Positions 80-14,333 of a DNA stretch of 26,585 nt are shown in pieces (positions within the stretch are counted from its first letter, which is position 1; the number at the start of each line of letters is the position of its first letter). The DNA is taken from positions 1 to 26,585 of the IMG/VR virus record IMGVR_UViG_3300020202_000198; one strand, given 5' to 3'. Position numbers and translations under genes: made by a program. The notes below the pieces were generated by a model that worked only from the letters and a program-made list of their open reading frames with translations, ran no database searches and had not been told where the DNA came from. This stretch comes from a virus.

Positions 80-1612
80 TTACGAGGCTTTCGCCGCCTT
101 CTTCTGGATCATACCGATCACTTTGTCCTGGACCTTGCGGCCGGTCTTGGCCTGTCCCGATTCTTTGGGTTTCTCCTCCGGAACCACAACGCCCTGTTCG
201 CGTGCGATGGGGTCCTTCTCGACGCGGGTCTTATCGCGAGCACCTGCTTTCCTGCGCAGGACCGGGTTCGCCTCCAGGAGGAGTTCCTCATCCGGCCATG
301 AGGTCATGCGTTGGGTCTCGGCGTTCCAGCGGAACGGGAATTTCAGGCCCGAGCCCCCACTGGAGCGGGCCTTCTGGATGTAGCCCCATCCGCGTTCTTC
401 CATGCGGTCGTCCTGGGAGCGTTTCAGAATGATCAGGTTGTCGCAGGTGCTGACCTTGTCCTTGCCTCCGGCGACCGAGCCCATGTTGGAGTTGGTCTCG
501 GTTTCCGCGCCCTTGATCTGTTGGGATGCGGACCATACGATCTTGTAGCAGGTCGGATCGTGAGCGAAGTCGTTCATCTCTTCGGAGATGGCTTTGTCTC
601 GGAGATGGATATCATCCAGGCGGATGCCCTTGCGCATGGGTGTCATCACGTCGATGTAGTCGATGCCCACGATGGGCCAATCCTCACCAGTCTCCAGGGT
701 GAGGTCCTGATAGTGGGCCTGGATGTCTGCCATGGTCGTGCCCACCATGGGGAATTTCTTCACCATGATATCGCCGGACTTGCCCTGCATGCCCTTGAGC
801 TTGAACACGACCTGATCGCGATCCTGGTAGACGCGACCCATAGCGGTGTCCGACATCATCGCGGCAAAGCGCTTGAAGATGGTCTTCGGCTCAAGCTCCA
901 ACGTGTAGAACACCACGTTCACCCCGAACAGAACCGCATAATTCATGGCGATGTTCTGGAGCCAAATCGACTTGCCGTAGCCCGAACTCGCACTGACCAA
1001 GTTCAGACTCGGATACTCGGTGCCGCCGTCGAAGCAGCGGTCCAACATGGCCATCCCCGTGGGGATCAGATCGGTGTCCTTGTTGGCTTCGAGCATCGCG
1101 TGCATGTCACGGAACACGCTCTGACCAAGGTCACGATGCACCGCTATACGACTGATCTCCTGCATCTGCTTGAACAGGCCGGGTGTGGACTTCCCGCTGG
1201 GGTCCTGACCGATAGCCTCGGCCGCGTTATACAGGAATAGCTCGGTTGCCTTGTTGCGGACGAACGCCTCGATGTCGTTACAGACCGCCGTCATCACATT
1301 GAGATCGCTCGCGTCTGCCGGTGTTTCCAGACGAACATTGGTCTTGCCCTGGATCGTCAACGGACTGGGCAGACGATTATACTCGGAACGATACTGATTG
1401 ATCAGGTCGATGACCGGACGGAATTCGGGATCAAAATATTCCGTCTTCAGGATGGGAGCGCAACGAGTCCAGATCGTGGGATTCGCCAGGGCGTACGACA
1501 ACAGCGCATACTGACCCATGTCCGAGGGATCAATCTGCTGGGCTGGTGGTGCGGCGATTTCGATTCGACCCGAGGCGATATCCTCGTAAGCCTCATCCGG
1601 ATACTCGTCCAA
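80..1612 (-). CDS. 41: Replicative DNA helicase, T4 gp41 / DnaB-like
   Basis: This is the hexameric helicase that unwinds the replication fork and partners with the primase encoded just upstream. The 510-residue product has an N-terminal helical region (about 30-160) and a RecA-fold ATPase domain from about 180. The Walker A-like loop SASSGYGKS lies near residues 207-215, the Walker B strand IVGIDYID near 315-322, and a sensor-type WSASQQ near 360-365. A YIQKARSSGGSG stretch near the end of the core resembles the DnaB-family arginine-finger and DNA-loop region. The last 70 or so residues are a lysine-rich tail. The start is TTG at 1612-1610, inside the last 20 bases of the primase gene. The next Met in frame, at residue 32, would leave a gp41-sized protein and is an alternative start. 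The family call is secure; the start is not. Confidence 0.9.
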   Translation of the reverse strand: MDEYPDEAYEDIASGRIEIAAPPAQQIDPSDMGQYALLSYALANPTIWTRCAPILKTEYFDPEFRPVIDLINQYRSEYNRLPSPLTIQGKTNVRLETPADASDLNVMTAVCNDIEAFVRNKATELFLYNAAEAIGQDPSGKSTPGLFKQMQEISRIAVHRDLGQSVFRDMHAMLEANKDTDLIPTGMAMLDRCFDGGTEYPSLNLVSASSGYGKSIWLQNIAMNYAVLFGVNVVFYTLELEPKTIFKRFAAMMSDTAMGRVYQDRDQVVFKLKGMQGKSGDIMVKKFPMVGTTMADIQAHYQDLTLETGEDWPIVGIDYIDVMTPMRKGIRLDDIHLRDKAISEEMNDFAHDPTCYKIVWSASQQIKGAETETNSNMGSVAGGKDKVSTCDNLIILKRSQDDRMEERGWGYIQKARSSGGSGLKFPFRWNAETQRMTSWPDEELLLEANPVLRRKAGARDKTRVEKDPIAREQGVVVPEEKPKESGQAKTGRKVQDKVIGMIQKKAAKAS

Positions 1613-2612
1613 TTTTTTCTAACCCCACGCGTGCTTGTTTGTAGTTCTTTGTTGCTCCCTGCACGATACTCACCGTGGTGAAGAGCAGTCCATTTCTGGT
1701 GATGGACTCACCTACGTCTTTGAGTTTCCCGGCCCAATCCGGAATGCTGATGGACCACTGATAGGTTTCGGCGGTTTCCAGGTAGTTTCCCCATTCCCCA
1801 CGTTTGAAGTCCGGTACCAAGATAGGTTCCTTTCCGGACACCCTCAAGAGATTCACCTGCTTTTGGGTGAATTTCGATCCACGTGTGGCCACGCCCTCAA
1901 CCGCTATGGCATCGAGCGGAGCCTCGACCACGATTGTGTTGATCTCGTCCGAGTTCAGGCTGTTCTGGTTGAACATGAAATCGGTGGGTGCTCGCTGAAT
2001 GAATCGGTTGGGGTCACCCTCCTTCGCGTATATATTACGGCCGAGGTAACCCACGATGATGTTCCCGTGCACGTACGGGATCAACAACGTGTTGGGGAGT
2101 TTCTGAGTCCAACAGAACGGATACTTGTCGATCAGGAACGGCCCACGCTGGTTCAGGTAGTTCAGCACCATACGTGCGGCTGGATACTTCTCGGCCTGCT
2201 CCGCCAGGAGGTCCGATCCCTCCGGCAATTCGCAGGGATGGAATCGGGTGACCACGTCCAGGTCCTCCTCGATCCCGACCACATTGCCACGACGATCCCT
2301 GATCAGGGCTTTGTTCTTGCGCACGCGCTCGCTGAACGGGATATCACGGAGCTTGCCCCCGAGCATGTGGAACAGCTTGAGCGGCCTCCCAAACAACCCG
2401 TTGCCGGGTTCCCAGCCGGTGGGTTGTTCGTGGAAAGTACAGCCACCGTTGTAGCAGTAGTAGCGCCAGCCTCCGGTAGTGGTCGGGGCGAATCCCCCAC
2501 GCTTACGACGATCCCCACAGGCCGGGCAGTCTATGTTGGTGAAACCGCGTGCGCTGTAATGGGGTCGGCCGTGGATGAGGTCGTGGAAACGATCAGTGAT
2601 GGTCCTCGTCAC
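1593..2612 (-). CDS. 61: DNA primase, T4 gp61-like
   Basis: This enzyme makes RNA primers for lagging-strand synthesis with gp41. A zinc-binding domain near the N-terminus has the pattern C29-x2-C32 ... C53-x4-C58 (CPACG, then YYCYNGGC). A TOPRIM-like core follows, with the acidic VVEAPLDA stretch and ILVPDF. I place the start at GTG 2612-2610, which overlaps the upstream stop as GTGA and gives 339 residues, close to the 342 of T4 gp61. A longer frame from GTG 2654 exists, but its AGGAGG lies one base from that GTG, too close to work. The 3' end overlaps the helicase start by 20 bases, so primase and helicase are probably translationally coupled. Confidence 0.87.
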   Translation of the reverse strand: MTRTITDRFHDLIHGRPHYSARGFTNIDCPACGDRRKRGGFAPTTTGGWRYYCYNGGCTFHEQPTGWEPGNGLFGRPLKLFHMLGGKLRDIPFSERVRKNKALIRDRRGNVVGIEEDLDVVTRFHPCELPEGSDLLAEQAEKYPAARMVLNYLNQRGPFLIDKYPFCWTQKLPNTLLIPYVHGNIIVGYLGRNIYAKEGDPNRFIQRAPTDFMFNQNSLNSDEINTIVVEAPLDAIAVEGVATRGSKFTQKQVNLLRVSGKEPILVPDFKRGEWGNYLETAETYQWSISIPDWAGKLKDVGESITRNGLLFTTVSIVQGATKNYKQARVGLEKIGRVSG

Positions 2613-2881
2613 AAATACATTCCCAATTGCGGATTCTCCTCGACGATCTTCCACGCCTCCTGGACGTTCTCCTTAAGACCCTCGACGGAGTGACCGTTGC
2701 GCTTGGCGTGGAGAATCATGTGGATCATCAGGAAGCTGACCCAATCGATATCCTTCACCGCGTAGATCGATTCGACCACGCGCTTCTCCCTGGTCAGACG
2801 GACCATGATCTCGACCAGATCGGGGTTGAGCTTTTTGCCCCCGCCCTTCTGGAACTGGGTGAAGTCGATTACGTCTGCCAT
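2609..2881 (-). CDS. Small conserved-looking phage protein, unknown function
   Basis: A 90-residue product beginning MADVIDFTQFQKGGGKK. The ATG at 2881-2879 follows TGAGGCAGAC, a good ribosome-binding site that contains the upstream gene's stop. A longer open frame to 3064 is mostly a serine/arginine-rich shadow of the upstream gene and is rejected. The protein is mixed charged and hydrophobic, with a likely helical segment around DWVSFLMIHMILHAKRNG, but has no signal peptide or clear membrane span. Its MADVIDF start resembles the MADIIAF start of the next gene upstream, and both proteins end in YL, so the two may be diverged relatives. Its stop overlaps the primase GTG, so coupling with primase is likely. 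Confidence 0.7.
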   Translation of the reverse strand: MADVIDFTQFQKGGGKKLNPDLVEIMVRLTREKRVVESIYAVKDIDWVSFLMIHMILHAKRNGHSVEGLKENVQEAWKIVEENPQLGMYL

Positions 2882-3733: not shown

Positions 3734-3762
3734 AGTTTAGCAGAAACTACGGGAAATGTCAA
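3734..3762 (-). promoter_or_regulatory. Sigma70-like promoter before the 2H gene
   Basis: On the minus strand TTGACA (3762-3757, perfect -35) is followed by a 17-base spacer and TAAACT (3739-3734, 4 of 6 matches to TATAAT). The predicted +1 is at or beside the A of ATG 3727, giving a leaderless or nearly leaderless message. The -35 overlaps the stop codon of the preceding gene. Confidence 0.6.
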
Positions 3763-4163
3763 CGATTCCAAACCCATTCTTTGGTTCGGGCCTGAATATC
3801 CATGCGAATCTGTTCGGTCACGGGTGTGCGGTTTTGCTCCGACGTGAGATAGTCGGTGAATTCCTCGTTCACCATGTAGATGAACGCGGGCTCGTCCAGA
3901 CCGAGGACAGGGATTTCTTTCCTCTTATAGAAGAGAGGGACCCGTTCGACAAAGTCGAGCTTTTTCAGGGTTCTCTCATTCACCCTGTAGACCTCACCGA
4001 GGATTCGGTAGGTTCCCCGGATCACGGCCGGGAAATGCCCGCACGAGAGCATGTCGTAGTCGAATCGAAGGGTCGGAGCCGCCTTGACGAACTCCGACCC
4101 CTTCAACAACCAGGACAGACGCTGCTCGCGTTTGAGTGTGCCGTAGACGAATACCTGGGTCAT
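3759..4163 (-). CDS. Gamma-glutamylcyclotransferase-fold (GGCT/AIG2-like) protein, second copy
   Basis: A 134-residue protein with the family's nucleotide-binding-like loop VFVYGTLKRE at residues 4-13 and the strand ILGEVYRV, whose Glu57 sits at the usual catalytic position. GGCT-fold enzymes form 5-oxoproline from gamma-glutamyl amides; the phage substrate is unknown. The start ATG 4163-4161 overlaps the stop of the upstream GGCT gene as ATGA. An in-frame extension to 4238 only mirrors the upstream gene in another frame. The pair probably arose by duplication, but sequence identity outside the motifs is low. Confidence 0.75.
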   Translation of the reverse strand: MTQVFVYGTLKREQRLSWLLKGSEFVKAAPTLRFDYDMLSCGHFPAVIRGTYRILGEVYRVNERTLKKLDFVERVPLFYKRKEIPVLGLDEPAFIYMVNEEFTDYLTSEQNRTPVTEQIRMDIQARTKEWVWNR

Positions 4164-4666
4164 GGAGCGAACTCCATGACATCCCCGGTCAGCTGCACGC
4201 CCTTCCGGGTCAGCTTCTGCTCCGAGTGGGCACCCCACAGATACGTCCAGGCCCCGTAGAGATTCCGGTTCACCCCCTGGAAGGGAGCGACCAGATCGAC
4301 ATCCACCTGGAAACGCTCGTAAACCACAGGATGTCCCTCACACAGATCGATATTGGACAAGATATCCCCATCGACCTCGTAGAGTTCCCCACGGATACGA
4401 AACGTCCCGTCCGGAGTCAGCACCGGAGCGAGCTTGGTCGTGCCCGGCACCTGCTTGGTCCACATCAAATAACAATCACCCCGCGTGATTGCCTCGCCCA
4501 GGAAACGAGCCTTGGCCAAACGCGCATGGTTGCGAAGACCGCGCTTCATCGTCCCGTACACGAACAGGATATGTCGGCGATCCTTGTCGTATTCGGGGTT
4601 TTCCGAAACGAACCCAGTGAGTTGGGCCTGAAGGCGCTCCAGGTCCTCAAGATAAGACATTGCCAT
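4160..4666 (-). CDS. Gamma-glutamylcyclotransferase-fold (GGCT/AIG2-like) protein, first copy
   Basis: About 168 residues. A charged N-terminal helix (MAMSYLEDLERLQAQ) precedes the family motif LFVYGTMKRG, and the catalytic-type Glu follows in FRIRGELYEVDG. The C-terminus reads NLYGAWTYLWG. Start choice is uncertain: ATG 4666 fits a leaderless message from the TTGACA promoter, while ATG 4660 has GGGG eight bases upstream. The downstream GGCT gene overlaps by four bases. The enzymatic fold is well supported; the substrate and role in infection are unknown. Confidence 0.75.
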   Translation of the reverse strand: MAMSYLEDLERLQAQLTGFVSENPEYDKDRRHILFVYGTMKRGLRNHARLAKARFLGEAITRGDCYLMWTKQVPGTTKLAPVLTPDGTFRIRGELYEVDGDILSNIDLCEGHPVVYERFQVDVDLVAPFQGVNRNLYGAWTYLWGAHSEQKLTRKGVQLTGDVMEFAP

Positions 4667-4671
4667 ATCCC

Positions 4672-4700
4672 CTTGTAACATAAATACCCTGAATTGTCAA
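4672..4700 (-). promoter_or_regulatory. Sigma70-like promoter before the GGCT pair
   Basis: On the minus strand TTGACA (4700-4695) is followed by a 17-base spacer and TACAAG (4677-4672, 4 of 6 matches), then GGGAT and ATG 4666. The spacer physically overlaps a late promoter of the opposite strand (4679-4686). Confidence 0.55.
4679..4686 (+). promoter_or_regulatory. T4-type late promoter CATAAATA
   Basis: CATAAATA matches 7 of 8 positions of the T4 late consensus TATAAATA. The predicted +1 is near 4692, leaving about 20 bases to GTG 4712, with AAGGA in between. It faces the virion gene cluster. Confidence 0.65.
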
Positions 4701-4711
4701 GGATTTCAGCG

Positions 4712-5197
4712 GTGACCCAATTTCAAGTCCAGTATAATATACCGAGACCTCAGGTTCAGTTGCCGGGCAAACAGAATCGCCTGACCGATACCGTTCTGAA
4801 AATCACTCCAGGAATGACCGAACCCTTCGAGTTTCTCTTCGGAAACCAAGACGGGGTTCCACTGAGCCTACGTGGATTTAGTGTAAAACTGATTTTCTGG
4901 TCCAAGTCGGCTCTCGACGACAACTCCACCGCTATGGGTCAGTCCGACATTGTGTTGGCGAAAAAATTTGAAGTGGACGACCCCTATGCGAAATCCGTCG
5001 AAATTGTTCTCACGGATGATGACACGCTCAAATTGGGGCTCGCGCGGTCCATTGGACTACGCTGGAGTTTGTTCCTGATCAACGAAGAAGGTGATGTGTT
5101 TCCACTCCAGGTTACCAGACGGGGTGGACGCTACGGAAATGTTCAACTCGACTTGGACTCGGGTATTCCCCCGGCCGAACTCGTGAGAAGCGCCTAA
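4712..5197 (+). CDS. Putative virion (baseplate/neck-type) protein
   Basis: A 161-residue product, MTQFQVQYNIPRPQVQLPG onward. The section ITPGMTEPFEFLF ... GVPLSLRGFSVKLIF looks like a beta-sandwich of the kind found at the N-termini of phage baseplate or appendage proteins (BppU-like). This is a resemblance only. I prefer GTG 4712 because AAGGA lies eight bases upstream. A TTG start at 4694 would sit almost on the predicted transcription start. The gene is the first of a plus-strand late cluster ending in the tail fibres, which supports a structural role. No catalytic motif is visible. Confidence 0.6.
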   Translation: MTQFQVQYNIPRPQVQLPGKQNRLTDTVLKITPGMTEPFEFLFGNQDGVPLSLRGFSVKLIFWSKSALDDNSTAMGQSDIVLAKKFEVDDPYAKSVEIVLTDDDTLKLGLARSIGLRWSLFLINEEGDVFPLQVTRRGGRYGNVQLDLDSGIPPAELVRSA

Positions 5198-5202
5198 GGC
5201 TA

Positions 5203-5210
5203 AATAAATA
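5203..5210 (+). promoter_or_regulatory. T4-type late promoter AATAAATA (overlapping GCTAAATA)
   Basis: The run TAAATAAATA after the upstream stop holds two overlapping late-type boxes: GCTAAATA at 5199-5206 and AATAAATA at 5203-5210. The latter matches 7 of 8 bases of TATAAATA. The predicted +1 is near 5216 and the next ATG is at 5235. Confidence 0.6.
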
Positions 5211-5234
5211 CTGCAACTTTGAGAGAATCCACTA

Positions 5235-5582
5235 ATGCCATCATACGCATATGAAAATCTGGGCGGGATCACGGGAGTCGGCGTAACCGGTGCAAAACCC
5301 TACTCGAAGCGCGGTAAGGATCGTGACCGCTATCAGAACTTCATCTTTGAGTGCGATCCCCTGACTCCGTTCACGGGGGTCGTGCACGTGCAGGGTTCTC
5401 TGAGCGACCCGCAGGAAGCCAGTGAAACTACTACCTGGGCAGACATCGCGCGGCTCACCTTCACCAATGAGGGTGGAACGTGTTTCGTACAGTTCGAACT
5501 TGAACTCGCCGCGATCCGTGTGAACTGCAAGCAGGGCAACTACACGGGTGGAAAGATCAAATCCATCCACACGATGAGGTAA
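5235..5582 (+). CDS. Putative virion protein, beta-rich, unknown function
   Basis: A 115-residue protein starting MPSYAYENLGGITGVGVTG. Alternating hydrophobic strands (FTGVVHVQGSLSD, TWADIARLTF, CFVQFELELAAIRVN) suggest a compact beta-sandwich. No membrane span or catalytic motif is seen. The ATG at 5235 is preceded by GAGAG about eleven bases upstream, a weak site. It is the first gene after a late promoter and lies 6 bases before the large tail-fibre gene, so a small virion component or fibre-attachment protein is the likeliest role. This rests on position, not homology. Confidence 0.65.
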   Translation: MPSYAYENLGGITGVGVTGAKPYSKRGKDRDRYQNFIFECDPLTPFTGVVHVQGSLSDPQEASETTTWADIARLTFTNEGGTCFVQFELELAAIRVNCKQGNYTGGKIKSIHTMR

Positions 5583-5588
5583 ACCCGC

Positions 5589-7934
5589 ATGGCAGTCGCA
5601 GTAGTCAGTTCAGTTCCGGCCTACGGTCATGGTGCAGTTACCAGTGGTAGCTTCTCCATTCTCGCACCGAACCTGTTCAACTTTGGATTCATCAACATCT
5701 CCAGTGTGATCGGTCTTCAGACCGCGTTGGATGCGAAGCTCAATGATGTGCTGACCCAGGTCGGTCAGACCAACGTCACCGTGAAGGGTGAGGACCTGAA
5801 CCTGCTCACCGGTATGCAGGATTACGGTCTGTCCACAGCGGATTTCCAGAAACTTGCGGATACCGTTGCGCTCTCATCCGAGTTGAATAGTCTGGTTGGG
5901 GTCAGCGGCAACGTTCAGGATCAGATCGACGACAAGATCGGCTTCGGTGATTTTAGCGCATCTGGTCAGATTTTCATCAGCACGGGTGTCGGCGCTGGCA
6001 CCGTGCAGACTCTGAGTTCGGCTCTGGGCTCGATCAGTCTGAACCGGTTGGGTGATCCCACCGGGAACCTCGATATGGGTGGGTTCAAGATCATCGACAT
6101 GGCTGATCCGACCAACCCGCAGGATGCGGTCACGAAGAACTACGTGGACTCCATCGTCGGTGGTGGTGGATTCCTGCCCCGCAACGGCTCACTCCCAATG
6201 ACGGGCGACCTCGATGTCGATGGTAACGACATCATTCTGAACGCGGCCGGAACCGACCGCCTCAACAACAGCACGTCGGGTCAGTTCAACGTGGAGCTTG
6301 GTGGTGTTACGCACTTCCGTGCCTCTACCACGATCATCGACGCGTTCACGAAGAAAATTCAGAACGTTGCTGATCCGACCAACCCACAGGATGCTGCAAC
6401 CCGCGCCTACACCCTGGCCACGTTCCTCCCACTGGCGGGTGGAGTCATGGTGGGCAACATCGACATGAATGGGGCCGACATCATCCTGAGCCCGGACGGT
6501 GGAACCCGTCTGGAGAACGGAACGGATGGCGTGTTCGAGGTGTTCGTGAACTCCGCCAGCCATTTCCGTGTGACTCCGACTGTCATCGACATGCAGGGTA
6601 AGATCGTCACTGATCTGCTCACTCCGGTTGGTGTGAGTGATGCGACCACCAAGGGATATGTGGATACGAATTTCCTGGCCTTGTCTGGTGGCACCATGAC
6701 TGGTGCGATCAACATGAACGGTCAGGCTCTGATCAATCCGGCTGCTCCGAGTGCGGGCAACCATGTGGGCGATCGTACCTACAACGATGCGCGCTACCTG
6801 AAGATTTCCTCCAACCTGTCGGATTTGGCAAGTGCGGTCACGGCTCGCACCAATCTGGGTCTGGCTGATGTTGCTGCAACGGGTGATTATAACGATCTCA
6901 TCAACACCCCGACGATTCCGACCACACTGAACTCGCTCACCGATGTGAACGTGGGCACGCCGGGTGTCGGACAGAACGGACATGTTCTGCGTTGGAACAA
7001 CGGAGCGGGTGAGTTTGATCTGGTTGCTCAGCACATCACCTCGGTCTTCGGACGCACTGGTGTTGTGACCGCGCAGGCTGGCGATTACACCGCCACCCAG
7101 ATCACCAACACTCCGGCCGGAACGATTGCCGCAACCAACGTGCAGGCCGCCCTGAACGAACTGGACACCGATAAGTTGGCTCGCTCTGGTGGAACCATGA
7201 CAGGTTCCATCGACATGGGCACCAACAACATTACCAACATCGGTACCCTGGGCGTGACCAACCACACCTTCTCGGCTGCGGACTATCGCAGTGCGTTGGG
7301 TGGAAACAGCTTCTTGATCCGTACCACCAATGCTCCGTCTGCGTCGGCACCGGTCTACTCGTTCATCGGTGCTCAGACCTCGGGTCTCTGGTATACGGGT
7401 TCTCAGTTGGCCCTGACCTTTGGCGGTGCCAACAAGGTTCTCATCGATAACAGTGCGGTCGATGTGACCTCACTGCGTGTGGCAAACGTGGCTGCTCCTA
7501 CCGCGAATGGTGATGCGGTGAATCTGGCCTACCTGAATGGGCTCCGTACGGAGCGTGTTCTGGGATCGGTCACGGGTGTGAACCTGATGTCCGGTGCTGG
7601 CACGGCCACGGCGATCTACACGGTTCCGGTCGGTGCCATGCACATCATCACCAAGATCATCGCGGTGGCCACCAGTTATATTCCAGGTGTAAGCCCGGTT
7701 GATCCCGTCATCAGCATTGGCATCGGTGGACCCGACTACGACGAGATCGTGGATTCCGCGACTCTCTCGTGGGGTGCGGGAGGAGCGGCAGATCAAGCCG
7801 TTTACGTGCAACCCGATCAGGGTGCGAGCACTCCGAACGCCGCAAACGTGGTGTCCTTACAAAAGGACACACTCGCGGCCGGAACCTTCTCGTCCCTCGT
7901 TGTGACGGTGTACGTGATTGGATTCCAGGTCTAA
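5589..7934 (+). CDS. Long tail-fibre protein with repeated modules
   Basis: The 781-residue product is a typical trimeric fibre shaft. Modules such as DPTNPQDA(V/A)T, followed by YVD or YTL, and LPL(A/S)GG.M.G.I.MNG recur between about residues 165 and 560 (for example MTGDLDVDG, MVGNIDMNG, MTGAINMNG, MTGSIDMG). The N-terminal 60 residues are non-repetitive and probably attach to the baseplate. The last 130 residues (from RTERVLGSVTG) form a distinct beta-rich domain, rich in Val, Ile and Gly, likely to be the receptor-binding tip. It sits between small virion genes and a second fibre-like gene. Host-range function is inferred. No intramolecular chaperone or carbohydrate-hydrolase motif is visible. 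Confidence 0.85.
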   Translation: MAVAVVSSVPAYGHGAVTSGSFSILAPNLFNFGFINISSVIGLQTALDAKLNDVLTQVGQTNVTVKGEDLNLLTGMQDYGLSTADFQKLADTVALSSELNSLVGVSGNVQDQIDDKIGFGDFSASGQIFISTGVGAGTVQTLSSALGSISLNRLGDPTGNLDMGGFKIIDMADPTNPQDAVTKNYVDSIVGGGGFLPRNGSLPMTGDLDVDGNDIILNAAGTDRLNNSTSGQFNVELGGVTHFRASTTIIDAFTKKIQNVADPTNPQDAATRAYTLATFLPLAGGVMVGNIDMNGADIILSPDGGTRLENGTDGVFEVFVNSASHFRVTPTVIDMQGKIVTDLLTPVGVSDATTKGYVDTNFLALSGGTMTGAINMNGQALINPAAPSAGNHVGDRTYNDARYLKISSNLSDLASAVTARTNLGLADVAATGDYNDLINTPTIPTTLNSLTDVNVGTPGVGQNGHVLRWNNGAGEFDLVAQHITSVFGRTGVVTAQAGDYTATQITNTPAGTIAATNVQAALNELDTDKLARSGGTMTGSIDMGTNNITNIGTLGVTNHTFSAADYRSALGGNSFLIRTTNAPSASAPVYSFIGAQTSGLWYTGSQLALTFGGANKVLIDNSAVDVTSLRVANVAAPTANGDAVNLAYLNGLRTERVLGSVTGVNLMSGAGTATAIYTVPVGAMHIITKIIAVATSYIPGVSPVDPVISIGIGGPDYDEIVDSATLSWGAGGAADQAVYVQPDQGASTPNAANVVSLQKDTLAAGTFSSLVVTVYVIGFQV
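6102..6394 (+). repeat. Near-exact direct repeat within the fibre gene
   Basis: A 26-base segment starting GCTGATCCGACCAACCC at 6102-6127 recurs at 6369-6394 with one mismatch. It encodes ADPTNPQDA in both places. The nucleotide conservation suggests recent duplication or recombination between modules. Confidence 0.8.
7851..7870 (+). other. Hairpin near the 3' end of the fibre gene
   Basis: GTGTCCTT (7851-7858) pairs perfectly with AAGGACAC (7863-7870) across an ACAA loop. It lies in coding sequence (VVSLQKDT) and no U-run follows. A role in 3' message stability is possible; it may also be chance. Confidence 0.35.
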
Positions 7935-7936
7935 GA

Positions 7937-8332
7937 ATGGACAAACAAATGAACTCTTTTATTGAAGAAACCCGAGCCCAGTTCGGGTTTCTCACTTTTC
8001 TGGTCATGAAGGATGGGGAGGTCCGTTGCGGGATCATCCAGAACGAAACTCCCAAAATGGTTATGTTCTTCGACATGACCCGTCTCAAAGATGAGGATCA
8101 GAAGAAACGATTCCTCGCCTATGGAGACGAATGGTGGTGGCAACGGTCACAATCCGTTCCGGTAGACCGGTATATCGGCAGTCGTTTTGACGAATTCCAA
8201 CGGATACTCCGGGGCTACCCCAAAAAGTCCCTCACCGAATCCATCGGCCCCACCATGAAATTAGCCGATCTCTATCTGAAGCGCATCAAGAAAAAGCGAA
8301 TCGACATCGTAAATAGAAGTGTAAAACCCTAA
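7937..8332 (+). CDS. Unknown protein between two fibre genes
   Basis: A 131-residue product, MDKQMNSFIEETRAQFGF onward, starting at ATG 7937 two bases after the fibre stop; ATG 7949 is an alternative. Neither has a good ribosome-binding site, so coupling to the fibre gene is likely. The middle has a tryptophan cluster (DEWWWQRSQSVPVDRYIG) and the C-terminus is strongly basic (KRIKKKRIDIVNRS). I recall similar tryptophan-rich proteins near structural genes of other T4-like marine phages but cannot name a family. A perfect 9-bp hairpin lies just inside the coding region. A fibre-assembly or regulatory role is a guess from position. Confidence 0.65.
   Translation: MDKQMNSFIEETRAQFGFLTFLVMKDGEVRCGIIQNETPKMVMFFDMTRLKDEDQKKRFLAYGDEWWWQRSQSVPVDRYIGSRFDEFQRILRGYPKKSLTESIGPTMKLADLYLKRIKKKRIDIVNRSVKP
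7967..7991 (+). other. 9-bp hairpin just inside the gene after the fibre
   Basis: GAAACCCGA (7967-7975) pairs perfectly with TCGGGTTTC (7983-7991) across a 7-base loop, followed by TCACTTTTC. It could partly terminate or stabilise the fibre transcript. The downstream T-run is short and displaced, so it is a weak terminator at best. Confidence 0.4.
8308..8315 (+). promoter_or_regulatory. T4-type late promoter CGTAAATA
   Basis: CGTAAATA lies in the last codons of the preceding gene. The predicted +1 is near 8321, 25 bases before ATG 8346. The same 8-mer occurs at 23518-23525 ahead of the bS21 gene. Confidence 0.5.
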
Positions 8333-8345
8333 TCGGTAACGAGAA

Positions 8346-9860
8346 ATGACCGTCACCAAGCAACTCAGGGGCACTTCTGAGCTACACTTTCGTATCGGCC
8401 TTGCCGGTCCCACTATCTATGAGGGTAGTGCGAACCCCACCATTACTCCACCCACAGCGATTGATTCCCTGAAAGACGGAGACATCTACATCCGTACAGG
8501 AACCGGTAATGAGGGTATCTGGGTGAGGGAGAGCGGAACCTTCTCTCGTATACCCACCGGGGCTGGTGGTGGCACCTATACCGGGGCGATCACCTACGAC
8601 GGCAACGTCATTATGAATGGATCGTCGGTTACCGTGGGTAACGCTCCGGGAGACCAGATCGTATTGAACGCCAGGGCTTCCTTCCCCAATGCCACGTCTC
8701 TGGGTAATTCCCTGTTGATCGGTGGTGATGCGGTCCTCTACAGGAACGCCCTAACCACCCTGCGCACGGAAGGGGACTTCCAGGTCGGGGCGAACCAGAC
8801 CGTTGGTGGCAACATCACTGTCACCGGTACTCTGATTGCCACGACAAACCCCGCGATCTTTTCGCTCGGTTCTGCTGGTAGTCCTGCGCTGACCTTTGTC
8901 GGCGACACCAACACGGGTATCTACCGAGTTGGTTCAGATGAATTGGGTATCGCCGCAAACGGAGCACTCAATACATCGTTCAGTGCAACCCAAATGAGTG
9001 TGGTGGTGCCGATTCGCGGTACTGCCGGGATCATCACGACGCCCGGTTTCTCGTTCCTCACCGATACCGACTCGGGTATGAACCAATTGACCACGGGGAC
9101 CGTTGATCTGGTCACGGATGGCATCGCCGCATTGAGATCGTCCGCCACCACAACGACTCGTTTCGCCACCAGTGCTGTTCCCGCACTTCGCGTGCAGCGC
9201 ACGGACGGTGGTAATGGTGTGGTGATCGGTCAGGTTGATTTTGCCGCACCAGATTCTGCCGCGACAGTCGAGGTGTTTGGTCAGATCAAGACGACCTCTG
9301 TCGATAACACAAACACCTCCGAGGACGGCAAGATCGAGCTATCCGTGATGGCAGCGGGATCGCTCACCTCGATGCTTAGTATTGAAGCGGGTGCGGTCTT
9401 CCCGAGTACCGATAACACCTTCACTCTGGGTAAGGTGGCGAATCGTTGGAGCACGGTTTTCGGCGAGGCAACCTCTGCGAAATACGCCGACCTTGCCGAG
9501 CGCTATTTCAGCGCGGCCGATACCCTGCCGGGAATGGTCATGGTGATTGCGGATGCCAATTTCATCTGGCCCTGCGACAAGGCGGCAGACGAGCGAGTCC
9601 TGGGTGTGATTTCGACCAAGCCCGGATTCCTTATGAACGACGACTCGGATAAGCAGGATTGGCCCATCGTGGCTCTGCGTGGACGCGTTCCGGTGCTCTG
9701 TGTAGGTGATGTCGGACCCGGTGATCTTCTGGTCACCCGGAGCCGTGCAGGCTACGCCCAGAAGGCCACGTGGTTCCAGAAAGTGTTTCGTCCGCACGCG
9801 GTATTCGCCAAGGTCCTAAAACGAATCGACCGCAAGACGGTCGAAGCTGTCATCCTTTAA
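8346..9860 (+). CDS. Tail-fibre / appendage protein with a C-terminal beta domain
   Basis: A 504-residue product. The N-terminus (residues 1-75) is unique; residues 75-350 are a low-complexity, Gly/Thr/Asn-rich shaft with phrases such as FVGDTNTGIYRVG and FLTDTDSGMNQL, common in phage fibres. The final 145 residues begin at NRWSTVFGEATSAKYADLAERY and continue with a compact domain (DERVLGVISTKPGFLMN, VALRGRVPVLCVGDVGPGDLL) that I associate with the C-termini of other marine-phage fibre proteins. The YADLAE signature marks its start. It may be the trimer cap or receptor-binding tip. A late promoter lies in the previous gene. The stop overlaps by 11 bases the 3' end of the converging DnaE-like gene, with no terminator between them. 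Confidence 0.8.
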   Translation: MTVTKQLRGTSELHFRIGLAGPTIYEGSANPTITPPTAIDSLKDGDIYIRTGTGNEGIWVRESGTFSRIPTGAGGGTYTGAITYDGNVIMNGSSVTVGNAPGDQIVLNARASFPNATSLGNSLLIGGDAVLYRNALTTLRTEGDFQVGANQTVGGNITVTGTLIATTNPAIFSLGSAGSPALTFVGDTNTGIYRVGSDELGIAANGALNTSFSATQMSVVVPIRGTAGIITTPGFSFLTDTDSGMNQLTTGTVDLVTDGIAALRSSATTTTRFATSAVPALRVQRTDGGNGVVIGQVDFAAPDSAATVEVFGQIKTTSVDNTNTSEDGKIELSVMAAGSLTSMLSIEAGAVFPSTDNTFTLGKVANRWSTVFGEATSAKYADLAERYFSAADTLPGMVMVIADANFIWPCDKAADERVLGVISTKPGFLMNDDSDKQDWPIVALRGRVPVLCVGDVGPGDLLVTRSRAGYAQKATWFQKVFRPHAVFAKVLKRIDRKTVEAVIL

Positions 9861-10470
9861 GGGCTTCGTCGATCAATTGCATATGAATAAGGATGGCCAG
9901 AGCGAAGGCCACGGCGTGCGACTTCTTGAAGAAGTAGCCTTCCTCACCGGATAGTTTCTGCCAGACCTTCTCCTTGATCTCCTCCCAGGGTTGACCCACG
10001 AGGTATTTCTTTCTCGGTCGAATCAGTGCGTTCAGAATAGCAAGGTCACCGACCGACCTCGGTGGATAATCCTCACAGAGGTGTTTGTGTCGGGTGATCT
10101 GGGTGATCTGGAGATGTGGATCATCACTCGTATAAAAACGTTCCTCCTGGAACCAACCCCAGGGAAAATCCCCCTGGGCACGGTCCAGCAACTGATTGAG
10201 ATGGCGTTCCGACCTCACCCCGTCATAGATGTGATAGGGAAGGAAATCCACCTTGTAATAGCCAAAGGGTTCGGCCACGTCATAGGGGAAGCTTGCATAT
10301 CCGGTGACCGGATCAATCGGGATATCCTGGAAGTAGATGCCCGACTTGTGTCGGACAAGATTTCCGTGCTGATCCAGTTGGGATGCGGTGATGGCGTTCT
10401 CGAACAGCAGCACCGCTCGATCACGATCCTTCACGTCCAGATCGACATCCGGTAGTTCAAACTTATCCAA
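9850..10470 (-). CDS. Miniature DnaE-like (Pol III alpha palm-type) protein
   Basis: The 206-residue product carries, in order, the hallmarks of the bacterial replicative polymerase active site. PDVDLDV (residues 7-13) aligns with PDFDVDF of E. coli DnaE (D401/D403 correspond to D10/D12). HKSGIYF (41-47) aligns with HAGGVVI, and KVDFL (73-77) with KFDFL (D555 corresponds to D75). DLAILNALIRP (142-152) aligns with the DLIALVALFRP-type segment, and KKSHAVAFA (182-190) with NKSHSAAYA. PHP, most of the fingers and the C-terminal domains are missing, since DnaE exceeds 1,100 residues. The start is TTG 10470, inside the upstream gene, preceded by GAGGGGG. It is last in a transcript with a zinc-finger gene and a gp62-like gene. 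I recall a similar pair in T4-like cyanophages but cannot confirm it. Activity is unknown. Confidence 0.7.
   Translation of the reverse strand: MDKFELPDVDLDVKDRDRAVLLFENAITASQLDQHGNLVRHKSGIYFQDIPIDPVTGYASFPYDVAEPFGYYKVDFLPYHIYDGVRSERHLNQLLDRAQGDFPWGWFQEERFYTSDDPHLQITQITRHKHLCEDYPPRSVGDLAILNALIRPRKKYLVGQPWEEIKEKVWQKLSGEEGYFFKKSHAVAFALAILIHMQLIDEALKG
10158..10178 (-). other. Hairpin within the DnaE-like gene
   Basis: CCCAGGG (10158-10164) pairs perfectly with CCCTGGG (10172-10178) across a 7-base loop. It lies inside coding sequence for QGDFPWGW. No regulatory context is visible; it may be chance. Confidence 0.25.
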
Positions 10471-11155
10471 GAGCCCCCTCTAGGATCGACGCAACACGAG
10501 AGGTTCCGGCCTCGTTCGATCTGATCAGACTCATCCAGTGGGTGGTGTTCACATACTCGTTGATCTGGTAGAGGTATTCCGGTGCGAGTCGATCCACCAG
10601 TTCCACCAGAGAACGATCATACCCGAACAACACCCAGGGAGAAATCTGGTTGTTCTTCACCATCAGAACAAGCTCACCCGGTGAGACCTCACGAAAAAAC
10701 GCATTCGCGGGCTGACCCGTGCGAATGGCCCAGTCCTGAATCGTACTGACCGAGGTGTTTGCCTGGAGTTCAGGATCATCGTTCAACCGCATAGCCGCGA
10801 TGAATCCGGCCAGGGTGTCACCCTGCTTCCACTTGACCTCGGGTATCTGCTTGTCCACGAGATAATCCACGTAGCGAAGTGGTGCGGCCACGTTGTTCGC
10901 ACTGATGAATTCGGCAAGACTCATGAACGTCGAGAACAGCGGAGACTTGCTGAACTCCTCCTGGGTCTTTTCCTTTCCCTTCTTGAGAAATCCGGTCTTG
11001 GTCTGCCAGTACGTAAACAGACGATGACCCGCAACCACGTCGAGTCCATGCTTTTGATCGAACTCCTGGCGATCCTTGCAGTCGTGCTTGTCGAACCAGG
11101 ACTTACGCTTGAAAGTCCGACCGCACTGCTGGCACTTGTAATTTCTTTCGATCAT
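10463..11155 (-). CDS. C2HC zinc-finger protein, possible replication factor
   Basis: A 230-residue protein with an N-terminal zinc finger C8-x2-C11-x12-H24-x-C26 (CQQCGRTFKRKSWFDKHDC). A helical body follows, with FSKSPLFSTFMSLAEF, RYVDYLVDKQIPEVKW and NQISPWVLFGYD. I recall the same architecture (finger, then an F..SP..F segment, then ISPWV) in an uncharacterised protein of T4-like cyanophages. DNA or protein binding is the likely role. The ATG at 11155 overlaps the gp62-like stop as ATGA, and the stop lies eight bases inside the DnaE-like gene. The three genes are thus tightly coupled, which suggests a shared job at the fork. It is not recognisably gp59, though a helicase-loader role is an alternative. 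Confidence 0.72.
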   Translation of the reverse strand: MIERNYKCQQCGRTFKRKSWFDKHDCKDRQEFDQKHGLDVVAGHRLFTYWQTKTGFLKKGKEKTQEEFSKSPLFSTFMSLAEFISANNVAAPLRYVDYLVDKQIPEVKWKQGDTLAGFIAAMRLNDDPELQANTSVSTIQDWAIRTGQPANAFFREVSPGELVLMVKNNQISPWVLFGYDRSLVELVDRLAPEYLYQINEYVNTTHWMSLIRSNEAGTSRVASILEGALG

Positions 11156-11649
11156 GAGCCTTTTACCCCATCATACGCTTTGAGGAGAGCTTCCTGGTCC
11201 TCGGTCTGGTAACCCGCCCTTGAGGCCAACTCGATCAGGTCCTCACGGTCGTTCTGCCTCAGCCATAACTCAACCTCTTCCTGACGAATGTCCGGATAGA
11301 CCAGGAGTAACAATTCCATCACTTTGTCCATCTGTGGATTCGTTCTGGGTTTGGTGAATTTGTGTTTCACCTTTCGACCCAGCCCACACAAGGCCAGCAA
11401 CTTCAACTGCAACTCCGGATGTTTTTGGAAACTATACCAGCCGGGATTCGCCACCTCGTTGAACCTGCTAATTAGGGCAGCATGGTCCTTATCGTTGTAG
11501 GCACCGGTCATCCATTGGGGCAACAGCCATCCGGCATTGCGGTCCAATTCCTTGAGACCCTCGGGGTCATCCAGATAGACCTCTCGGACCTGGAGACTTC
11601 GCTGATCAAGAAACTCCAGGATTCCGAAGAGATCAAACTTCTGTTTCAT
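11152..11649 (-). CDS. 62: Probable sliding-clamp-loader small subunit, T4 gp62-like
   Basis: The 165-residue all-helical product follows the pattern I associate with gp62 of marine T4-like phages: FDLFGILEFLD at the start, a short linker, then LPQWMTGAYNDKDHAALISRFNEV, a conserved-looking YSFQKHPELQLKLLALCG, a basic stretch GRKVKHKFTKPR, and a final helical bundle (VELWLRQNDREDLIELASRAG). gp62 holds the gp44 ATPase ring that loads the clamp. No gp44 or gp45 gene lies in the window, which weakens the call. The start ATG 11649 overlaps the upstream stop as TGATG; a TTG six bases upstream is possible. Similarity is by pattern, without an exact motif. Confidence 0.55.
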   Translation of the reverse strand: MKQKFDLFGILEFLDQRSLQVREVYLDDPEGLKELDRNAGWLLPQWMTGAYNDKDHAALISRFNEVANPGWYSFQKHPELQLKLLALCGLGRKVKHKFTKPRTNPQMDKVMELLLLVYPDIRQEEVELWLRQNDREDLIELASRAGYQTEDQEALLKAYDGVKGS

Positions 11650-12161
11650 CACCAAATGTCCGAGATCGGCCTGTTAACGTCAATACGATTTGGAGAAAAT
11701 ATAGCGCATACCGGGCCACGTTCAATCTGATCCTCATGACGCTGGATAATTCCCAGTGGTACAACCAACATGTCACGATCATCAATGGGTGGGCAGGTCC
11801 AGGTCATATTCGGGAAGATTTCCCTCGTACGCATCTTCAAGTAATAGGGCATGTAACCGTCCACCGGATTCAGACAGAACACATCGTAGGTGCGGCCGTT
11901 TATCTCGTGCAGAGGAATCGATTGGACATATTCCTTGTCCGAACACAGCACGGACCAATGGAATGGAATGACCACGGTGAACGGATTGGGCTCACCTATC
12001 TCCAACAAAATACTAGCCGATGTGAATTCCTCGATTTGCGTAAGCTTCTCGAAGTAAAAATCAGGATTGCGAAAGTCTTTGAATCGAAGAACCGAGTAAT
12101 GACATTCCTGATTTATAATATCAGTGTCGATCTTCTTATTTGTTTCACTCAAAATCAACAT
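11649..12161 (-). CDS. Conserved-looking T4-like phage protein, unknown function
   Basis: A 170-residue product starting MLILSETNKKIDTD at ATG 12161, seventeen bases inside the uvsW 3' end, with GAGG ten bases upstream. A longer frame to 12257 only reads through uvsW and is rejected. The second half has distinctive phrases: VVIPFHWSVLCSDKEYVQSI, DVFCLNPVDGYMPYYLKMR, MTWTCPPIDDRDMLVVPLG, FSPNRIDV and PISDIW. I recall very similar phrases in a conserved hypothetical protein of marine T4-like phages. No catalytic motif is evident. The first third is more A+T-rich than its neighbours. Its place between uvsW and a replication gene suggests a DNA-metabolism role. Confidence 0.68.
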   Translation of the reverse strand: MLILSETNKKIDTDIINQECHYSVLRFKDFRNPDFYFEKLTQIEEFTSASILLEIGEPNPFTVVIPFHWSVLCSDKEYVQSIPLHEINGRTYDVFCLNPVDGYMPYYLKMRTREIFPNMTWTCPPIDDRDMLVVPLGIIQRHEDQIERGPVCAIFSPNRIDVNRPISDIW

Positions 12162-13635
12162 GATACTCAACCTCAATTCGTTCAACTTCTTGATTGGCTT
12201 CCCTATATAGGGCTCGCCTTTTATTGGCATGGGCATACGAATATCCGTGATTTCCATGAATATCCACGGCCGTCAGTATCTTCTTGTCTTCGGTCGTGCG
12301 CAGACCGCGTCCCAGAATTTGCATGACCTTTTCGAATTTCTTGCCCTGCTCGATCACGACTAGATTGAAAATCCTAGGGATGTCAATTCCGGTGGAGGCG
12401 ATGCCCATGGTGGCGATCAGAATATTCCCGTCTGAGGTGTCAAAGCTTTCATAGACCTCCTTTCGGAATTCCGGCTTGTCACGGCCATCCAGGCTGATGC
12501 TGCCAGGGATGAGTTGTTCCAGGATTTTCCCATGCTCGCGGAACTGCACCAGGATCAGTGTGTTGCCGTTCTCCTCGGTCAGACCCAGAACGAGATTGCG
12601 AACGTAGTTGAGACGGGCACTGTTGTGGAAGAACCAATTGACCTGATCCTTCCATTCCTCGAACGAGGAGTCGCCCCACTGTTTGCGAGTCTTGCGTTTG
12701 TCCTCGGGCACGAAATCTGGATAATCCGGATTGTGGGTGTCCATCAAACTGAACTGGGTGATCCTGGTTTGCGCCAGCACTCCCTGATTCTGTAGCTGCC
12801 ATGTCTGATACTTGAAGATGACCGGTCCCACACTCGCCTTGAGTTGTTGGCGAAACAGGTCCTCTTTCGGAACGGTGCCGGTGCAACCGAATCGGAACGG
12901 GACATTCGCAGCCGGACCCGTCATGATCTCGTTGATGGTCTTGGCCTTGCCCTGATGAGCTTCGTCCAGGATCACGCACTTCACGTCGGCGAAGAGTTCC
13001 GGTGTCTTGTCCAAACTCTGCCACGTGCAGATGGTGATACGATTGCGGTCGTGTGCGTCCATGTACCAGGTGCCGGTGTGCTCCTTCAGACCGACATCCT
13101 TGAACTGACCGAATGTCTGAAGGATCAGGCCGATGTCGGGCACAATCACCACGACGTTTCCCACCTCCATATAGACGCGTGCGATGCCCGCACAGATCAG
13201 GGTCTTACCTGAGCCGGTCGCCAACTCCAGCAGGCCAGCACCGGTTTGAATCGCCGTGTGAATGGCGGCAAGCTGATAATCCCTGAGGATCACCGGTTTT
13301 CCCTTGATCATGTGTTCGGAAAAGAGATTCTGATCCGGGAGCTTGATCTGCTCGATCAGGCTGGTGTAATCGGTGCGGAAATCCACAATCTCGAAGTCAT
13401 AACCGGCCTGATCCAGGATCGGAAGGATATCCTCCAACAGGTTCAGATAGGTCATACCGGACGCGGTCAGCAACTTGATACGCCCATCCCATCGCCCCAG
13501 CTTATAAGCGGGCGTGAACATGTAGGCGGGGAAGAAATACGTTAGGTGATCCTGGGCCTTCTGAAGAGTAATCTGATCGACGCCACGAATCCTAATGTTT
13601 ACTTCGTCTTTGATCTCGATGATCGCATTCGACAT
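12145..13635 (-). CDS. uvsW: RNA-DNA and DNA helicase UvsW (SF2)
   Basis: A 496-residue superfamily 2 helicase. UvsW remodels forks, branch-migrates recombination intermediates and removes R-loops, thereby ending origin-dependent replication in T4. The N-terminal ~110 residues match the UvsW DNA-binding domain (FFPAYMFTPAYKLGRWDG). Then come a Q-like LRDYQ, Walker A LATGSGKT (138-145), DEAH box VILDEAHQ (221-228), motif III FGCTGT and motif VI QILGRGLR near the C-terminus. Length is close to the T4 protein. The ATG at 13635 has no strong ribosome-binding site; a short hairpin lies just upstream. The downstream gene begins inside its 3' end. Confidence 0.93.
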   Translation of the reverse strand: MSNAIIEIKDEVNIRIRGVDQITLQKAQDHLTYFFPAYMFTPAYKLGRWDGRIKLLTASGMTYLNLLEDILPILDQAGYDFEIVDFRTDYTSLIEQIKLPDQNLFSEHMIKGKPVILRDYQLAAIHTAIQTGAGLLELATGSGKTLICAGIARVYMEVGNVVVIVPDIGLILQTFGQFKDVGLKEHTGTWYMDAHDRNRITICTWQSLDKTPELFADVKCVILDEAHQGKAKTINEIMTGPAANVPFRFGCTGTVPKEDLFRQQLKASVGPVIFKYQTWQLQNQGVLAQTRITQFSLMDTHNPDYPDFVPEDKRKTRKQWGDSSFEEWKDQVNWFFHNSARLNYVRNLVLGLTEENGNTLILVQFREHGKILEQLIPGSISLDGRDKPEFRKEVYESFDTSDGNILIATMGIASTGIDIPRIFNLVVIEQGKKFEKVMQILGRGLRTTEDKKILTAVDIHGNHGYSYAHANKRRALYREANQEVERIEVEYHVDFE

Positions 13636-13670: not shown

Positions 13671-14333
13671 TTATTTGATCCCGAATAGTTCAAGCGCAAC
13701 CACACGGAAACACTGGTTTGAATCCGCCTGATTACGTGGGACCACAAACCTCATCATGTCATCATAAAGGTCGATCTGTTCCGGAGTTCGACCACATGCA
13801 CGGTAATAGGCCAATGCATCCCTGCCGAAGAAGAACAGCTTCTCTGCACAGCCCATGGCACGGTCATATTTCTCGAATTCCGTGGCATCGACCTTGGACA
13901 TGTCGATGTCCCACTTCTCCTGGACGATCTCCTGGATACGGACCTCAGCCTTGTTGTAATCCGCCATTACAGCTTGAATCTTCAACGGATATGGAATGTC
14001 GTTGATGATCGCTTCAGATGCATCGTGGAACAGCGCCCATTTCACCGTCATCGAATCCTTGGGAAATCCCTTCTCGTGGATCAGATACTGGACGAGTTGC
14101 ACACAGTGGGTGCCCACCGTGTACGGGACCGGGGTGTGATTGGCGAATCTTCCCTCTCCGGAGATCGCATGTACCACGGAATCAAAATCCAACTCGTCCG
14201 CACGGGGCTGGAGCGGCCAAAAGAAACGCCCGTTTCTCAACTGGATCGACTCACTCAGCTTGCGCCCATGCAGAGCCTGCCAACCACTCGTCAAATAGAT
14301 CGCATCATTCTCTACTGTGCCTAGTTCAACCAT
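13671..14333 (-). CDS. HD-domain phosphohydrolase (YfbR-type 5'-nucleotidase-like)
   Basis: A 220-residue metal-dependent HD hydrolase. The metal ligands are visible: H66 and/or H76 in NHTPVPYTVGTH, the HD doublet at H103-D104 in WALFHDASEA, and D112 in INDIPYPLK. The phrase LFHDASEAIINDIPYPLK is typical of the YfbR/dNMP-phosphatase group. Such enzymes dephosphorylate deoxynucleotides, which would fit nucleotide supply or salvage beside the dUTPase and recombination genes. The ATG at 14333 has a good AAAGGAG site and lies inside the uvsY 3' end. Substrate is inferred; a defence-signal nucleotide is an alternative. Confidence 0.82.
   Translation of the reverse strand: MVELGTVENDAIYLTSGWQALHGRKLSESIQLRNGRFFWPLQPRADELDFDSVVHAISGEGRFANHTPVPYTVGTHCVQLVQYLIHEKGFPKDSMTVKWALFHDASEAIINDIPYPLKIQAVMADYNKAEVRIQEIVQEKWDIDMSKVDATEFEKYDRAMGCAEKLFFFGRDALAYYRACGRTPEQIDLYDDMMRFVVPRNQADSNQCFRVVALELFGIK

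Follow-up and report, generated by a model that had tools for sequence, protein, structure and literature searches.

The window, a stretch of 26,585 nucleotides that is itself a fragment of a viral genome (IMG/VR record IMGVR_UViG_3300020202_000198), contains on its minus strand an open reading frame of 206 amino acids located among genes for T4-like replication proteins. The sequence-only reading of this DNA had described the product as a DnaE-like protein with the three aspartates of the polymerase palm. We refer to this protein as the Asp-half, and to its putative partner, which is encoded elsewhere in related phages, as the GS-half. The features of the locus considered here are the following:

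80–1612, minus strand: gp41/DnaB-like helicase, conserved in the downstream flank of the Asp-half gene (55/58 loci)
1593–2654, minus strand: gp61-like DNA primase, conserved in the same downstream flank (55/58 loci)
9850–10470, minus strand: Asp-half ORF, 206 amino acids, TTG start, open up to its stop codon; probably the C-terminal half of the catalytic core of a minimal, split Pol III alpha
9901–9927, minus strand: fingers motif KKSHAVAFA, with K182 and H185 invariant; FNKSHxxxY in DnaE
10015–10047, minus strand: fingers motif DLAILNALIRP, with P152 invariant and R151 in 85/86 sequences; K154, just after the motif, is invariant
10240–10254, minus strand: KVDFL, with K73 and D75 invariant; K553 and D555 in E. 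coli DnaE
10330–10350, minus strand: HKSGIYF, with H41, G44 and Y46 invariant; KHAGGVVIA, just past the thumb, in DnaE
10432–10452, minus strand: PDVDLDV, with D8, D10 and D12 invariant; D10 and D12 are D401 and D403 of E. coli DnaE ('MPDIDIDFxDR' in the alignment with solved DnaE)
10463–11155, minus strand: C2H2 zinc-finger protein, phrog_11058, upstream of the Asp-half in 93 of the 94 loci with enough flank
11152–11655, minus strand: conserved neighbour, phrog_11758-like (PHROG match and locus comparison)
11649–12257, minus strand: conserved neighbour, phrog_11279 (PHROG match and locus comparison)
12145–13635, minus strand: UvsW helicase, flank of the conserved block (52/56 loci)

The first 8 bp of the Asp-half ORF are shared with the 3' end of the upstream gene, and the purine-rich stretch AGAGGGGG immediately precedes its TTG codon. 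This start position is the same as in homologues, at or slightly before a (P/T)DIDID motif. The 5 DnaE-like motifs pointed out earlier are all present in this ORF and occur in the order of DnaE: PDVDLDV (residues 7–13), HKSGIYF (41–47), KVDFL (73–77), DLAILNALIRP (142–152), and KKSHAVAFA (182–190). This agreement goes well beyond what chance would produce.

Homology of the Asp-half had to be established with profiles, as searches with the single sequence were uninformative: no Pfam model matched and phmmer against the PDB sequences returned only noise. The protein matched PHROG 11778 ('DNA polymerase') at 6.9e-47 over residues 8–203, and a profile made from 62 homologues placed Pol III alpha chains on top of the PDB sequences in four collinear pieces (best 6.6e-4). 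Aligning a small Asp-half alignment with one DnaE sequence by hhalign gave a weak match (39.8% probability). With tblastn, 63 phage records were found at 30–40% identity, and those inspected belonged to the T4-like jumbo phages typified by RaK2, 121Q, PA5oct, Atu_ph07 and XacN1. A relative is encoded in at least 480 IMG/VR stretches, the closest among the matches listed being 50% identical and having the same gene order (L060). The homologous sequences are mostly 35–50% identical. D10, D12 and D75, previously proposed to be the palm aspartates, are nevertheless retained in all 86 distinct environmental sequences and in all cultured phages aligned. D8 is invariant as well, and so are R16, H41, G44, Y46, P51, K73, Y82, W104, P152, K154, W170, K182 and H185, while the RP and FKKSHA motifs of the fingers are kept in approximately 95–100% of the environmental homologues. 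We also considered a cellular origin for this form of the protein and rejected it on the matches listed from a scan of genomes, among which only two contigs (L230 and L231; 3.7 and 29.7 kb) are binned as archaea, in a Pacearchaeota and a Natrialbaceae MAG, and both are probably misbinned phage.

The AlphaFold model of the Asp-half (pLDDT 94.0, pTM 0.83) places D10 and D12 on one strand (residues 9–13) and D75 on another (74–78). The comparison with DnaE/PolC palms that had been proposed was clear: the best nine Foldseek matches in the PDB were all Pol III alpha. VIA-align superposed 187–198 of the 206 residues on Pol III alpha structures and reached a Z of 9.3 over 198/206 residues with the Taq enzyme (3e0d), compared with 4.1 for the best unrelated chain. 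Glyoxalase/bleomycin-resistance folds, which scored a Z of approximately 4, span only residues 1–79 and were dismissed as background. The predicted structure thus matches Pol III alpha along its entire length. Neither a missing Pol-beta-like palm nor a loss of the aspartates in homologues, both of which the sequence-only reading had named as fatal to its proposal, was observed. In E. coli DnaE numbering the model covers approximately residues 395–781, so that the PHP, beta-binding and OB regions are missing, as had been stated. Relative to DnaE, approximately 90 residues (the thumb) are absent between D12 and K73, before HKSGIYF, and approximately 87 residues of the fingers are absent between the RP and FKKSH motifs. 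Hence, the view that little of the fingers remains was right in that a part has been lost, but more of this subdomain is retained than was claimed. In DnaE the GS motif (residues 361–364 in E. coli) comes before the strand with the DxD aspartates (PDFDVDF, 400–406). Since the model starts at residue 395, the GS motif, and with it the N-terminal half of the palm, is not part of the Asp-half chain.

This missing unit is encoded by a separate gene of approximately 175 codons, the GS-half (PHROG 11127), located far from the Asp-half gene in related phages. When 8 phage genomes that are complete or nearly so were searched for PF07733, each gave exactly one match above the cut-off, always in a separate ORF (approximately 170–185 amino acids) and over family positions 13–98. 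Scanning with a GS-half alignment retrieved more than 500 stretches, and using one divergent member as query retrieved none. The GRGSS sequence was present in 78/78 distinct environmental sequences, and in 67/80 loci the C-terminus of the protein lies 33 residues away from the first residue of GRGS. The GS-half model (pLDDT 87.1) aligned to residues 278–394 of E. coli DnaE, with Z values of 9.9–11.2 on E. coli chains and a best value of 12.5 on 5lew. The 2 models therefore cover adjoining parts of the DnaE catalytic core without overlap, and the break falls at approximately 394/395. The gp44 clamp-loader gene lies downstream of the GS-half gene in 48/57 loci, and no fusion of the 2 halves was seen in approximately 170 loci. 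The GS-half also matched PHROGs 13169 (463 amino acids) and 7513 (461 amino acids), which have a GS-half-like region near their C-terminal end and could be the N-terminal halves of further Pol III alpha genes that are split.

Both halves were found in 59 of the 60 phage records listed with an Asp-half, the exception being a 109-kb record (PP728206), and they are also both present in Salicola phage SCTP-2. Of the 10 environmental contigs above 200 kb that were tested, 9 contained the two genes. The GS-half was absent from 14 of the 24 environmental contigs tested with an Asp-half, 13 of them shorter than 200 kb and one of 280 kb, which we ascribe to these contigs being fragments. Shorter contigs mostly carried one half, in line with the distance of tens to hundreds of kb between the genes. 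The 26.6-kb window likewise contains no GS-half; from its relatives we infer that the phage possesses one. The distances of the 2 halves correlate at 0.81, a value obtained without a control that we do not count as proof. A family B polymerase, the type that the sequence-only reading had ascribed to T4-like phages, was detected in 8/8 cultured relatives tested (PF00136) and in 11/13 large contigs. The family B exonuclease domain was found in 9/9 phages and a DnaQ-like exonuclease above the cut-off in 7/9, while no family A polymerase scored above the cut-off in 8 phages tested. No family B polymerase was recognized among the ORFs examined in the 26.6-kb fragment. This gene is in two frames in Atu_ph07 (NC_042013.1, 212336–214615) and is interrupted by approximately 2.5 kb in the PA5oct-like phage PAC2 (PP408249.1, 202097–206726), likely through an insertion or a split gene.

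The position of the Asp-half gene, between uvsW and gp61/gp41, is conserved. The zinc-finger protein encoded upstream, phrog_11058, occurs in the same kinds of phages as the Asp-half (61 records) and may be an accessory DNA-binding partner, or candidate third component, of the Asp-half. The idea that the two genes are always adjacent was refuted by the large insertions of RAS14 and XacN1, in which approximately 10 kb of other genes separate them; only the order is kept. Tail-fibre-like genes lie on the plus strand of the window (4694–9860), opposite to and between gp61 and the Asp-half gene, and also in L060, whereas in several cultured phages the Asp-half is directly followed by just one small gene on the opposite strand. 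The replication/tail region includes a pair of gamma-glutamyl cyclotransferase-like (GGACT) genes that adjoin and overlap each other (3759–4238 and 4160–4681, minus strand). A gene for a YfbR-like/HD deoxynucleotidase (13671–14333, minus strand) separates uvsY from uvsW; in RaK2 and 121Q this place is taken by a DnaQ-like exonuclease.

Altogether, profile, structure and neighbouring genes corroborate the presence of a family C palm/fingers module with three catalytic aspartates in a T4-like replication block. Such a module had been regarded as unexpected. However, group 2.2 jumbo phages have already been reported to possess, besides their family B polymerase, a minimal Pol III alpha specific to phages, which is split into separate proteins encoded by distantly located genes, the N-terminal protein binding the NTP and the C-terminal protein binding Mg2+ and template (Iyer et al. 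2021, PMC7824862). The window protein is a further member of this computationally predicted family (PHROGs 11778 and 11127), with which it shares the phrog_11778 match and the neighbours, and presumably the two-gene organization beside a T4-like family B polymerase. Nothing fundamental differs: it is divergent, sharing 30–40% identity with cultured phages and 50% with its closest relative from the environment, and is adjoined by tail-fibre-like genes. In the passages found in the Atu_ph07 and CBB genome papers, the GS-half alone is named as a Pol III alpha subunit. The literature searched, which covers few subscription journals, contained no experimental work or biochemistry on the split mini-Pol III. 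As the split-enzyme idea is thus published, the value of our analysis lies in confirming it, in defining its anatomy more sharply and in the broad range of members assembled. Beyond PMC7824862, it adds the break point, the loss of the thumb and of part of the fingers, the extent of residue conservation, the conserved setting among replication genes and the co-distributed zinc-finger neighbour.

The Asp-half has the aspartate triad, the lysine before the third aspartate, the RP and FNKSH-like motifs and a collinear fold in common with the DnaE proteins of E. coli, Thermus aquaticus and Mycobacterium. The phage enzyme differs from these in consisting of 2 polypeptides, in having shortened fingers, and in lacking the PHP domain, most of the thumb, and the beta-binding and OB/C-terminal regions. 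Cyanobacteria also encode the family C DnaE by 2 genes, the halves of which are spliced into one protein by inteins. In contrast, neither phage half contains extra intein sequence, and the phage break is located just before the DxD strand.

We consider it probable that the Asp-half represents the C-terminal half, responsible for Mg2+ binding, of a miniature family C nucleotidyltransferase (Pol III alpha/DnaE-like) that consists of 2 proteins without a covalent link, a conclusion also reached independently by Iyer et al. (2021, PMC7824862). The suggestion that the Asp-half alone could be a minimal polymerase is not supported, since it lacks the GS-motif unit encoded by the second gene, phrog_11127. 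That the similarity is a matter of chance, an unrelated protein sharing a few short motifs with DnaE, could be argued from the failure of the single sequence to match Pfam or to give more than noise in the PDB. This reading has next to no chance of being correct and is refuted by the profile, Foldseek and VIA-align results, which all rank Pol III alpha clearly first, and by a partner that supplies exactly the missing half. The small size of this standalone protein and the separate, full replicase of its relatives would also fit a catalytically dead relic retained as a structural piece of the replisome. We think this very unlikely because the aspartates, GRGS, and the lysine and histidine residues, which a relic would lose first, are invariant across sequences that are mostly only 35–50% identical.

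A reading that is unlikely, but deserves more weight, is that the 2 halves form an active nucleotidyltransferase of the Pol-beta fold that is not a template-dependent DNA polymerase and, for example, tails ends or modifies nucleic acids or proteins. Such an enzyme need not grip a duplex, which would account for the loss of the thumb, an unusual loss for a processive polymerase that keeps non-templated activity conceivable. The invariance of catalytic and nucleotide-binding residues in a protein that has lost approximately 90 thumb and 87 fingers residues, and the complete family B replicase of the relatives, are also consistent with it. It accords less well with the near-complete retention of the family C fingers motifs RP and FKKSHA and with the location of the gene within the replication block.

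For the split family C enzyme we propose the following mechanism. The GS-half would supply the N-terminal half of the Pol-beta-like palm, in which GRGS(S) holds the triphosphate of the incoming nucleotide. The Asp-half would contribute the three catalytic aspartates and the shortened fingers, with Lys, His and Arg residues for triphosphate and template. Together, the halves would rebuild E. coli DnaE from approximately residue 278 to 781, minus most of the thumb and part of the fingers. By binding each other they would restore a two-metal active site of the Pol-beta type able to add nucleotides, and they most likely assemble into an active nucleotidyltransferase/polymerase. This complex may polymerize DNA beside the family B replicase of the phage. 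Its most plausible task would be short synthesis, such as the extension of gp61 primers before hand-off, or alternatively gap filling in recombination-dependent replication or repair; our guess is that these tasks fit the neighbouring genes best. Primer extension of this kind would be analogous to the hand-off from DnaE to PolC in Bacillus subtilis. A bolder version, which we regard as quite unlikely, gives the T4-like replisome a second functional polymerase in the split mini-Pol III, with the C2H2 protein as third subunit gripping the DNA instead of the thumb and with gp61 primers being passed to the family B replicase. Should the two halves prove active, they would make up one of the smallest family C polymerases, with a divided catalytic domain and working in viruses already equipped with an unrelated replicase. 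A two-polymerase phage replisome would then be testable, and the enzyme would bear on the origin of the large bacterial Pol III.
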